From contig VGIR01000012.1 of assembly GCA_016867815.1 (NCBI GenBank), positions 1-47,963 of the forward strand: a stretch of 47,963 nucleotides of DNA. Reading direction: 5' to 3'. Both the position numbers and the translations under genes were made by a program. The notes beneath the pieces were generated by a model. That model did no database searches and was not told where the DNA came from. It saw only the letters and a program-made list of their open reading frames with translations. Source of the DNA: a candidate division WOR-3 bacterium. GTDB taxonomy: Bacteria > Hydrothermota > Tepidihabitantia > Tepidihabitantales > Tepidihabitantaceae. This document shows, one piece after another, positions 1,173-23,595 of the stretch; positions within the stretch are counted from its first letter, which is position 1, and every line of letters begins with the position of its first letter.

Positions 1173-1203
1173 CGCGGCTCCGATCAGGCCGTAGCGCTGC
1201 CGC

Positions 1204-1267
1204 GGAAAGCGGGGACAGTCCCGCGGAGCGCCGACGTCGAACTTGGCGCGGTACAGTCCCCGTTTCC
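1204..1267. repeat. palindromic element, copy 1
   Basis: An imperfect palindrome of about 64 bp with ends ggaaagcggggacagtccc and gcggtacagtccccgtttcc around a short centre. It shares its arms with the copies at 21602-21658 and 22667-22738. In the metG reading frame it encodes ARYSPRFP, the same peptide as the copy inside the second HTH gene, so the element keeps one preferred open frame. Here it lies upstream of the predicted metG start. Confidence 0.8.
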
Positions 1268-1339
1268 CGCACGTGCACCTGTCACCCCGTTGGGGCGAAA
1301 GCCGTCCTGCGGACTCGCTGCCGGACCCCGGCCGTGTCC

Positions 1340-20954: not shown

Positions 20955-21146
20955 GCCGAAGTCAGAAGGCAGAAGGCAGAGTGCAGAAGGCAGAAGTACC
21001 AGACCGGACAGCGGATTCTTACCACCAAGGCACCAAGACACCAAGATGCAGGCGAAGTCAGAAGGCAGAAGGCAGAGTGCAGAAGGCAGAAGTGGCGGAC
21101 CGAGGAGCGGATTCTCACCACAAAGACACAAAGACACCAAGGACTC
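20955..21146. repeat. tandem duplication, 96-bp period, of mixed word repeats
   Basis: Two copies (20955-21050, 21051-21146) each start with cgaagtcagaaggcagaagg, continue gagtgcagaaggcagaagt, then gcggattct, then an accacnaagncaccaagacac word. The copies differ at a minority of positions. They form the spacer between the two paralogous HTH genes, and each joins an AAGTCAGAAGGC-type word to a CACAAAGACACC-type word. Confidence 0.85.
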
Positions 21147-21260: not shown

Positions 21261-22442
21261 ATGAGCGGGACTGAGTCGAGGGCTGGAAGAGATACGCTTG
21301 TAGGGGAGCTGTCGTCGCGGCTTGTCGCTCTGCGGAAGCGGGCCGGGATGTCGCAGGAGGCGGTGGCGGAGGCGATGGGGAGGCCAAAAGCAGGTGAGAG
21401 GCTTGCCCGCAGGCTGGAGCGCGGTGGAGTAGAGGGCGCGAGCCTAGCCACGCTGGTCGAGTATCTGCGCGCAATCCGGGCCGGATTCGGCGATCTGAAA
21501 GAAGTGCTCGACCGCTACACGTCCATCCCGATTCCCGAGTCGCAGCGGAAGCGGGCTGCGGAGGCGCCGATGCCACGGGCTCAGATGAGCGCGCGTGCTT
21601 GGGAAAACGGGGACAGTCCCCCGGAGCGCTCGGACGCGCGGTACAGTCCCCGTTTTCCTGGAAAGCGGCAGCCCTTTGGCGGCGCTCCAGGCAGGCAGGA
21701 GGAACTGCGCGTGCTGCGGATACGTCGGAGGGCCGGGTACTGGGCGCTGCGCAGGCTGTTTGAGTACTATCTGCACGCGGGGCTGAACAGCGTCGCGATA
21801 CCGCCCTGCATGAAGTACCGACGCGTCACGGCCGCCCACTCGCGGAGGGTGTTCAATGCACTGTACCGGACACACCGGGCGAAGGCGGCCAGGCGGGCCG
21901 AACGGCTGGCCAGGCTGAGGACATCGGCCGAGAAGCATGCTATCGAGAGCGCGTTCGTTGAGTGCGCGGAGGCAATCGCGGAATTCGCCTATAGCGAGAT
22001 GTGCGAGCACGACGAGATTGGTTGGATGCCGCCGGAGGCCGAGGCGCGCGCCGTCATGGCGGTAAAGCCGAAGCACCGGGTCGTGACCGACTTTCAGATG
22101 TGCCTGGCCGAGTGGGCCGAGGTGGTGAGCCGCTACAACGCCGCGCTGATGGTAATCTACGAGCGCCCGCACCGGGCCGCGCTGGACATCGCCGAGTCTG
22201 CCGGATCCGACGCACGCACTCGCCTACGCTACCGTGGGGCAGCCCTGCGGGCGGCGAACATCGCGCGAACCACTGCGCCGGATACGCCGCGGCGAGCGAA
22301 GAGCATCAGCGACTGGCGCGCGACCGGCTGGCCGGAAGAGCTGGACCGCGGATTGCTCGAGCGGATGCTTGCCGCTGCGCTCACTACCTGGGACGCGCTG
22401 CTTCCGACCCTCCCGCCCGCCCCCGGGCCGAGGCCCGTGTAA
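21261..22442 (+). CDS. XRE-type helix-turn-helix protein 2, with in-frame palindromic element
   Basis: Paralogue of the upstream HTH protein. Residues about 18-90 form the HTH region (RLVALRKRAGMSQEAVAEAM, then LVEYLRAIRAGFGDLKEVLDRYTS). Residues 114-133 (WENGDSPPERSDARYSPRFP) are encoded by palindromic element copy 2, an insertion between the HTH part and a helical C-terminal part of about 260 residues that I do not recognise. Because the element is 57 bp, the frame is kept. The rest is basic and Ala/Arg-rich, with two Cys (MCEHDE and MCLAEWAE). ATG 21261 follows repeats, without a clear ribosome-binding site. Confidence 0.7.
   Translation: MSGTESRAGRDTLVGELSSRLVALRKRAGMSQEAVAEAMGRPKAGERLARRLERGGVEGASLATLVEYLRAIRAGFGDLKEVLDRYTSIPIPESQRKRAAEAPMPRAQMSARAWENGDSPPERSDARYSPRFPGKRQPFGGAPGRQEELRVLRIRRRAGYWALRRLFEYYLHAGLNSVAIPPCMKYRRVTAAHSRRVFNALYRTHRAKAARRAERLARLRTSAEKHAIESAFVECAEAIAEFAYSEMCEHDEIGWMPPEAEARAVMAVKPKHRVVTDFQMCLAEWAEVVSRYNAALMVIYERPHRAALDIAESAGSDARTRLRYRGAALRAANIARTTAPDTPRRAKSISDWRATGWPEELDRGLLERMLAAALTTWDALLPTLPPAPGPRPV
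21602..21658. repeat. palindromic element, copy 2, inside the HTH2 gene
   Basis: The ends ggaaaacggggac and gtccccgttttcc are perfect 13-bp reverse complements. The middle contains agtcccccggagcgc and gcgcggtacagtc. Length is exactly 57 bp, i.e. 19 codons, with no stop in the host frame. Confidence 0.9.
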
Positions 22443-22653: not shown

Positions 22654-23595
22654 ATGAAAGAGCGTGTTCCGAAAACCAGGGAGAGTCCCTCGGAGCGCGT
22701 GCGCCGGACTTCGCACGGTACAGCCCCCGTCTTGCGGAAGCGGGTCGGCTTCATCGGCGCGGGTCGGGTGGGTTGCGCAATGGCGTGGCATTGCCGGCGG
22801 CTGGGCTATCCGATAGCCGGCGTGACCGACCTGAAGCCGAAGCAGGCGTGGGTCGTGTACGGGTTGATGAAGAAGGAGTACGAGCGGCTGAGTTCACGCG
22901 AGGTCGCGGCAGGAAGCGACGTTCTGTTTCTGACCGTGCCCGATACCCACATTGCGGCGGTGTTCGAGTCGGTGCGGAAGTGGCTCATGCCGGGTACAAT
23001 TGTCGTCCATTGTTCGGGCGCACTCGGAACCGATGTCCTTTCGGGCGCGCGCGAGCAGGGACTCGGAGCCCTGGCCCTGCACCCGGTGCAGTCGTTTTCG
23101 AGCCACTCCCAGGCCATCAAGGGTCTGCCCGGCTCCTATTTCGCGGCCGACGGTTCGGTCACCGGCCTGAGGTTCGGCCGTCATCTAGTGAGGCAGCTTC
23201 ATGGCGGCTGGGTGATCGTGCGCGGGGCCGACCGGTCGCTGTACCACGCGATGTGCGTGTTCGCATCGAATCTCGTGAGCGCCTTGTTCGACGGGGCAGA
23301 GGAGATCGGGCGCGAGCTTGGCATTTCGCAGCGCCGCGCCGGCGTGATGCTTGCGCCGCTGGCGCGAACCGTGCTCGACAACGTCGCGGAGCAGGGCGCT
23401 GAACCGAGCTTGACCGGACCGGTCGAACGCGGGGACGCGCTGACGGTGGCGGCGCACTTGCGGGCCTTGGAGAAGCGGACGCCGCGGCTGGCGCCGATGT
23501 ACCGGGTGATGTCGGGCCGGTTGGTTGAGATGGCCAGGCGCAGAGGGCTGGCTGGGGCGGCGGTAAGGAAGCTGCAGAAGGCGCTTGAGGAGTAG
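22654..23595 (+). CDS. Rossmann-like/DUF2520 domain protein, N-terminus made by a palindromic element
   Basis: An oxidoreductase-like protein of the Rossmann_2-like plus DUF2520 family, of unknown substrate. After the N-terminal extension, RVGFIGAGRVGCAMAWHCRR is the dinucleotide-binding motif; VLFLTVPDTHIAAV and VVHCSGALGTDVLS are family hallmarks, then the helical DUF2520 domain (ALHPVQSFSS, HAMCVFASNLVSAL). Residues about 5-29 are encoded by palindromic element copy 3 (22667-22738), so the element has supplied an extended N-terminus ahead of the fold. ATG 22654 is placed by the promoter; the frame is also open from GTG 22579. 313 aa. Confidence 0.85.
   Translation: MKERVPKTRESPSERVRRTSHGTAPVLRKRVGFIGAGRVGCAMAWHCRRLGYPIAGVTDLKPKQAWVVYGLMKKEYERLSSREVAAGSDVLFLTVPDTHIAAVFESVRKWLMPGTIVVHCSGALGTDVLSGAREQGLGALALHPVQSFSSHSQAIKGLPGSYFAADGSVTGLRFGRHLVRQLHGGWVIVRGADRSLYHAMCVFASNLVSALFDGAEEIGRELGISQRRAGVMLAPLARTVLDNVAEQGAEPSLTGPVERGDALTVAAHLRALEKRTPRLAPMYRVMSGRLVEMARRRGLAGAAVRKLQKALEE
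22667..22738. repeat. palindromic element, copy 3, at the start of the DUF2520 gene
   Basis: Diverged copy: gagagtccctcggagcgc and gcacggtacagcccccgtct match the arms of copies 1 and 2, with ttccg and cggaa-type outer ends. Length is about 72 bp and the DUF2520 frame is open through it. Confidence 0.75.

Follow-up and report, generated by a model that had tools for sequence, protein, structure and literature searches.

A probable mobile palindromic repeat inserted in frame in an HTH gene and in unrelated conserved genes of the candidate division WOR-3 lineage

The window analyzed here is the whole stretch of 47,963 nucleotides at the start of contig VGIR01000012.1 from a candidate division WOR-3 bacterium, read on the forward strand. 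It contains an HTH gene, HTH2, whose reading frame runs through a palindromic element, together with two further copies of this element. The features concerned are as follows:

21261..22442, + strand: host gene HTH2, an ORF of 393 aa; its N-terminal part gives a weak HTH_3 match and its conserved C-terminal part is common to the orthologues in genomes G001-G004
21602..21658, + strand: palindromic element of 57 bp, short type with loop GGAGCGC...GCGC, in frame in HTH2 and encoding ENGDSPPERSDARYSPRF
21602..21614, + strand: 5' arm of the element, GGAAAACGGGGAC, from the sequence and the covariation of the arms across copies
21646..21658, + strand: 3' arm of the element, GTCCCCGTTTTCC, from the sequence and the covariation of the arms across copies
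1199..1269, + strand: copy 1 (long type), intergenic, upstream of metG, 75.3 bits
22666..22736, + strand: copy 3 (degenerate), at or in the N-terminus of the DUF2520/Rossmann gene, 39.7 bits
22654..23595, + strand: DUF2520/Rossmann-like gene adjoining copy 3, true start uncertain (ATG at 22654 or later)

The palindrome at 21602-21658 is 57 bp long with its outermost 13 bp at each end forming a perfect inverted pair, and repeat detection on the same interval gave arms of 22 nt at 86%. Inward of the 13 bp, the stem shows two conserved mismatches (A.A and C.T), followed by GT/AC and CC/GG pairs, and ends in a loop that has its own stem. The ORF at 21261-22442 has no stop across the palindrome, where its translation, ...ENGDSPPERSDARYSPRFP..., joins the HTH part to the C-terminal part. 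A sequence-only reading of this DNA had claimed both a 57-bp palindrome with perfect 13-bp inverted ends and its stop-free, in-frame position between the HTH part and the remainder of HTH2, and both claims were borne out. HTH2-like genes form a large paralogous family in the genus and family, with up to 23 matches per genome (G000-G005 and G015, G000 being the genome of the window). Upstream of HTH2, positions 20957-21141 of the window hold an 89-bp sequence in two near-copies (89%) that have GAAGTCAGAAGGCAGAAGGCAGA and ACCACAAAGACACAAAGACACCAAG motifs, ACCACAAAGACACAAAGACACCAAG recurring elsewhere in the window, and an array of 24-nt tandem repeats with diverged copies occupies positions 1-206 at the contig start.

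The arm GGGGACAGTCCC occurred 28 times in the 3.37-Mb genome against one occurrence of a reversed control pattern, and a covariance model built from an alignment of 18 copies scored the HTH2 copy at 77.9 bits (E 2.8e-21), so that the HTH2 palindrome cannot be attributed to chance. With this model, about 51 distinct copies were recovered in the own genome. When 150 candidates were scored per genome, the congeners G001, G002 and G003 gave 65, 80 and 101 matches, respectively, at E<=1e-6 (both strands of one copy being sometimes counted), G004, G005, G007 and G014 gave few matches, and no match to the element model was found in the other searched members of the family and order. The loops fell into subtypes, GGAGCGC...GCGC (57 or about 65 bp), GGCCGCG...CGCGGCCGCAATCC (about 64 bp) and a minimal one spanning about 38-44 bp. 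Copies 1 and 3, previously proposed as relatives of the HTH2 palindrome, are members of this family by score; the additional argument that copy 1 encodes the same peptide in the same frame upstream of metG carries no weight since copy 1 is spacer there. Across the copies, 24 stem cells were changed on both sides compared with 12.7 +/- 2.4 in shuffles, and the covariation score was 0.187 compared with 0.116 +/- 0.014, a value reached by 0/500 shuffles. This covariation indicates that what is conserved is a DNA hairpin and not a peptide. Strict arms were also present in Hydrogenedentota, Nitrospirota, Planctomycetota and Firmicutes. The strict arm pattern also occurs in two IMG/VR viral contigs (L211 and L212).

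The proposal of an insertion would have failed if the residues encoded by the palindrome were ancestral to HTH2, and comparison of the orthologues indicated that they are not. The element is absent from four orthologous copies (both copies in G003 and those in G001 and G004), in which the linker is different and shorter. A near-identical element is found at the same site in G002, with 56/57 positions identical in a gene whose remainder is just 67% identical, and therefore behaves as an element and not as inherited protein sequence; the two element-free G003 copies are closer to the own gene (78-81% identity). An ancestral low-complexity linker that is palindromic by chance would be in keeping with a peptide common to G002 and with the element-free linkers being rich in hairpins themselves (GGAGTGCGTGCAGC...GCTGCCGCTCTTCC; GCGGGAGC-TGT-GCTCCCGC), but it is hardly credible against the four copies lacking these residues, the divergence of the G002 gene around its nearly unchanged element and the recurrence of the same DNA at about 50 unrelated places. 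The history of the HTH2 site may have involved separate insertions into a hot spot, a gene conversion event or a loss of the element from G003, all of which are possible. Local sequence seems to have been replaced by the element rather than just split and, given this apparent replacement and the hairpin-rich insert-free linkers, the HTH2 copy is a less clean case than the one in hypE described below. In the HTH2 orthologues (L067, L066 and L083), a second in-frame hairpin, GCGGGAGC-N3-GCTCCCGC, lies just downstream of the insertion site and is decayed in the window (21670-21690).

Based on matches to curated families, the hosts in the own genome encode HypE, PheS, LysS, CarB, ThrC, TrmFO, a RsmF-like methyltransferase, a DUF763 protein, an alcohol dehydrogenase, POR and a FAD-binding flavoprotein, while those in relatives include MnmG, AlaS, aspartase/fumarase, MnmA and IOR alpha among others, and one element was found inside cbiD of a Nitrospirota genome. 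Essential enzymes are among the hosts. The own hypE gene is exactly 57 nt longer than in G002, G004 and G005, and a different, nested palindrome is present there in G003. No target-site duplication was visible in this clean comparison; such duplications were not scored systematically, and the outer boundaries of the element vary. Among the orthologues compared (G001-G006), the carB insert was restricted to the own genome and those in thrC, por and pheS to the own genome and G003. In rsmF, the element is present in the own genome, G001 and G003, a different palindrome (GGGACATGACC...GGATCGTGTCCC) in G002 and G004, and the site is empty in G005 and G006; in the DUF763 gene, the own genome and G003 have it, G001 has a degenerate version, and the site is empty in G002, G004 and G006. 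Sites were thus hit recurrently, as in hypE, adh and rsmF, where the same codons hold a different palindrome from one species to another. In G003 (L243), the loop of the first palindrome in both rsmF and the DUF763 gene contains a second one, GGGGACACGTCC...GGATGTGTCCCC, also in frame. The residues of the element are absent from the PDB relatives of LysS (LysRS), ThrC and TrmFO. At HTH2, por and thrC, insertion seems to have been accompanied by a loss of local sequence. The trmFO gene (L104:2889-4454, G000:C45) carries three in-frame palindromes, one mid-gene and the other two close to the C-terminus. Further palindrome families, GGGGACACGTCC...GGATGTGTCCCC (L243: rsmF and DUF763 of G003) and GGGACACGATC...GGTCATGTCCC (L237: adh of G004), nest in or around the element in frame.

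Across four genomes, 68 of 152 copies (45%) were located wholly in called genes, whose frame they left intact, and spacers held another 77, the remaining 7 being at gene edges; the genic share was 24/51 in the own genome and 44/101 in G001-G003, each genic copy adding about 13 to 25 amino acids. Genes were called with a home-made phased Markov model trained on long ORFs of the own genome, restricted to the stretches around copies rather than the whole genome, and the element was masked during scoring. A count of genic and spacer copies had been suggested as a check on the in-frame claim, which it upheld, many of the genic copies being in highly conserved enzymes with insert-free relatives. Genic copies were depleted relative to the called coding fraction of 0.75 (binomial p 5e-15), as is expected if many genic insertions are purged. 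The location of about half of the copies in spacers, together with a strand that has a more stable fold than most of its shuffles (z -2.16 as DNA), would also be compatible with a transcribed regulatory or terminator hairpin over which chance ORFs were called as genes. This is very improbable given the masking during gene scoring, the absence of any Rfam family reaching threshold for the element and the mid-gene position of copies in pheS, lysS, alaS, carB, hypE, thrC, mnmG and trmFO, with homologous protein on both sides.

All six frames were open in 48/68 genic and 37/77 (48%) spacer copies; the corresponding shares were 12% for dinucleotide shuffles and 9% for genomic windows, coding or non-coding. 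As spacer copies are also stop-poor, this property belongs to the element itself and is sharpened in genes. The test for a frame bias that the sequence-only reading had suggested showed only a modest excess of one sense frame (E-N-G-D-S-P; 21/59 de-duplicated copies, six-way p = 0.005), all six frames being used by genic copies. This sense frame is the most hydrophilic on average (-1.5), and support for the used frame being the most hydrophilic open one was weak (hydropathy one-sided p 0.03; rank test p 0.13, not significant). No difference in element length modulo 3 was found between copies in genes and those in spacers (p 0.68), so that insertion of a fixed-length unit alone cannot explain frame keeping, which must result from selection on net length, with flanking bases that were gained or lost counted in. 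Inserts might also be kept for a useful added peptide, acting on linker length or regulation beyond mere tolerance, as the excess of the most hydrophilic frame and the recurrent hits on the same loops could be taken to suggest. We consider this improbable, since every frame is used, fewer copies are genic than the share of coding DNA would predict, the hosts are functionally unrelated, orthologues do without the insert and the rank test was not significant.

We infer, with a probability of about 85%, that the sequence in HTH2 represents a mobile repeat of the WOR-3 lineage, non-autonomous, hairpin-forming and REP/MITE-like, which was inserted in the interdomain linker of an HTH gene. The observations are of a dispersed, stop-poor family with covarying arms, in which about half of the copies are genic with the frame kept and orthologues are insert-free or differently filled. 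In the mechanism inferred here, insertion would not be targeted to genes; as the element rarely has a stop, an insertion with a net length that is a multiple of three would add only a short, mostly polar peptide, and insertions in tolerant loops or linkers would survive while others would be purged. By a weaker inference, which we regard as about equally likely to be right or wrong, copies may have been moved in trans as single-stranded hairpins by a RAYT/IS200-type Y1/HUH tyrosine transposase, the GGGACR/YGTCCC inverted ends that bound Y1 genes appearing to resemble the GGGGACA 5' arm of the element.

Spread without a transposase, in which palindromes would have undergone gene conversion or recombined with one another and hairpins would have templated replication errors, with nesting and local replacement as the products, remains possible but doubtful. 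It would accommodate the site at which G000 and G002 have nearly the same element although the flanks have diverged, the lack of a visible target-site duplication in hypE, the palindromes nested in palindromes and the apparent replacement of local sequence at HTH2, por and thrC, but it fits less easily with other findings: hypE genes with and without the insert differ cleanly by 57 nt, copies are scattered over dozens of unrelated places, several phyla have the same arms, and Y1 transposases are present in every tested element-bearing genome.

With regard to the transposase, Y1_Tnp was encoded in 17/17 tested strict-arm genomes from several phyla, compared with 5/14 named control genomes. Among 18 related genomes, all seven with the element have Y1 and the seven without Y1 have no element. 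G010, G011, G018 and G021 have Y1 genes in the absence of the element, and the co-occurrence is confounded by phylogeny. For 36 distinct RAYT genes, GGGACR was found just upstream in 32, with YGTCCC also just downstream in 25, each motif being expected in <10% of random windows. No RAYT gene was bounded by the exact element among the six Y1 genes in G000 and 56 further RAYT loci (L281-L336), related GGGACR ends being found instead. The suggested search for a REP-associated tyrosine transposase thus succeeded only in part, Y1 transposases being present and none being bounded by the exact element. In a Hydrogenedentota genome (L308), a RAYT with a GGTGACTGTCCCC end adjoins a near-copy of the element. 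At loci from Petroclostridium, Syntrophomonas, Prevotellaceae and Planctomycetota, the element had no recognizable transposase beside it. Of the two arms, the 5' one (GGGGACA) conforms to the GGGACR style but the 3' one, read outward, is GGGACT and not GGGACR. Because of this off-style arm and the lack of a RAYT bounded by the element, the RAYT link is just an inference, with no data on hairpin binding or cleavage, and the case for Y1/RAYT as mobilizer stands evenly balanced. A broader proposal, possible but with the odds against it, is of a cross-phylum family of GGGGAC-armed hairpins, its sequence shaped to be stop-free in six frames so as to colonize coding DNA, which in WOR-3 repeatedly and nestedly supplied loops and linkers to essential enzymes and was moved by a RAYT subgroup with GGGACR ends.

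The best-known case of protein-extending palindromes is that of Rickettsia, an intracellular parasite with a reduced genome. According to PMC2229807 and PMC10969869, which review the work of Ogata (2000, 2002), the Rickettsia palindromic elements (RPE-1 and others) are short palindromes found in frame in unrelated conserved genes and in spacers, with nearly half of the copies in ORFs and peptides added to housekeeping enzymes. The WOR-3 element is likewise palindromic, dispersed, multi-copy and in frame in unrelated, conserved genes with insert-free homologues. The analogy originally drawn with these elements is therefore supported by the insert-free orthologues and the 68/152 copies in genes in frame. 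It is a functional match and an analogy only; no sequence relation is claimed, and expression and activity of the hosts are inferred. The WOR-3 element differs in being shorter (about 38-65 bp versus 105-150 bp for RPE-1), in being stop-poor in six frames with all six used, in its nested copies, in having arms in several phyla and in residing in a free-living-type, multi-megabase genome.

The accompanying claim that such palindromes are rare outside Rickettsia needs qualifying, as intragenic GTAG and CGTC REPs have been described in several genera, including O. terrae, Thauera, Xanthomonas, R. conorii and others (PMC3733652). These are dispersed imperfect palindromes, some in ORFs where they encode 20-30 aa, with tRNA synthetase genes among the hosts; they are mostly intergenic, and GTAG-REP genomes encode RAYTs (PMC3733652). 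Unlike them, the WOR-3 element has no GTAG or CGTC tag, has conserved arms GGGGACAGTCCC / GGTACAGTCCCC, forms just one nested hairpin, in which the A.A and C.T mismatches are conserved, has an intragenic share of about 45% and was not found flanking a RAYT in inverted orientation (6 Y1 genes in G000, loci L281-L336). As for RAYT and TIR-flanked tyrosine transposases (PMC2817692; PMC3733652), GGGACR...YGTCCC inverted repeats bound Y1_Tnp genes in element-bearing genomes, but these repeats resemble the WOR-3 element without being identical to it. The element also shares a non-autonomous, protein-extending character with MITEs carrying ORFs fused in frame (ERIC, the 107-bp Correia element and RPE; PMC2229807), from which it differs in sequence and structure and in the lack of a visible target-site duplication in one clean comparison. 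No Rfam family was at threshold, and literature searches found no paper for the arm sequence and surfaced none on such repeats in WOR-3. The family is new, non-GTAG and RPE-like, in WOR-3.

WOR-3 offers a dense case, in which congeners have both filled and empty sites, insertions are nested, and recurrent hot spots lie in aminoacyl-tRNA synthetases and in tRNA-modifying and metabolic enzymes; this makes it directly testable whether inserts are tolerated or protein-shaping and which enzyme moves them. It also serves as a warning that some loops in WOR-3 proteins, and in at least one Nitrospirota protein, are mobile DNA.

A shared, sorting-domain-like C-terminal domain (VVRNVLFLP...LLDxxGRKVxDLxPGxNDVRxLxPGVYFV) was also observed; in many secreted-type proteins, this domain has elements at one and the same variable loop (L092, L112, L114, L120, L338, L390 and L391).
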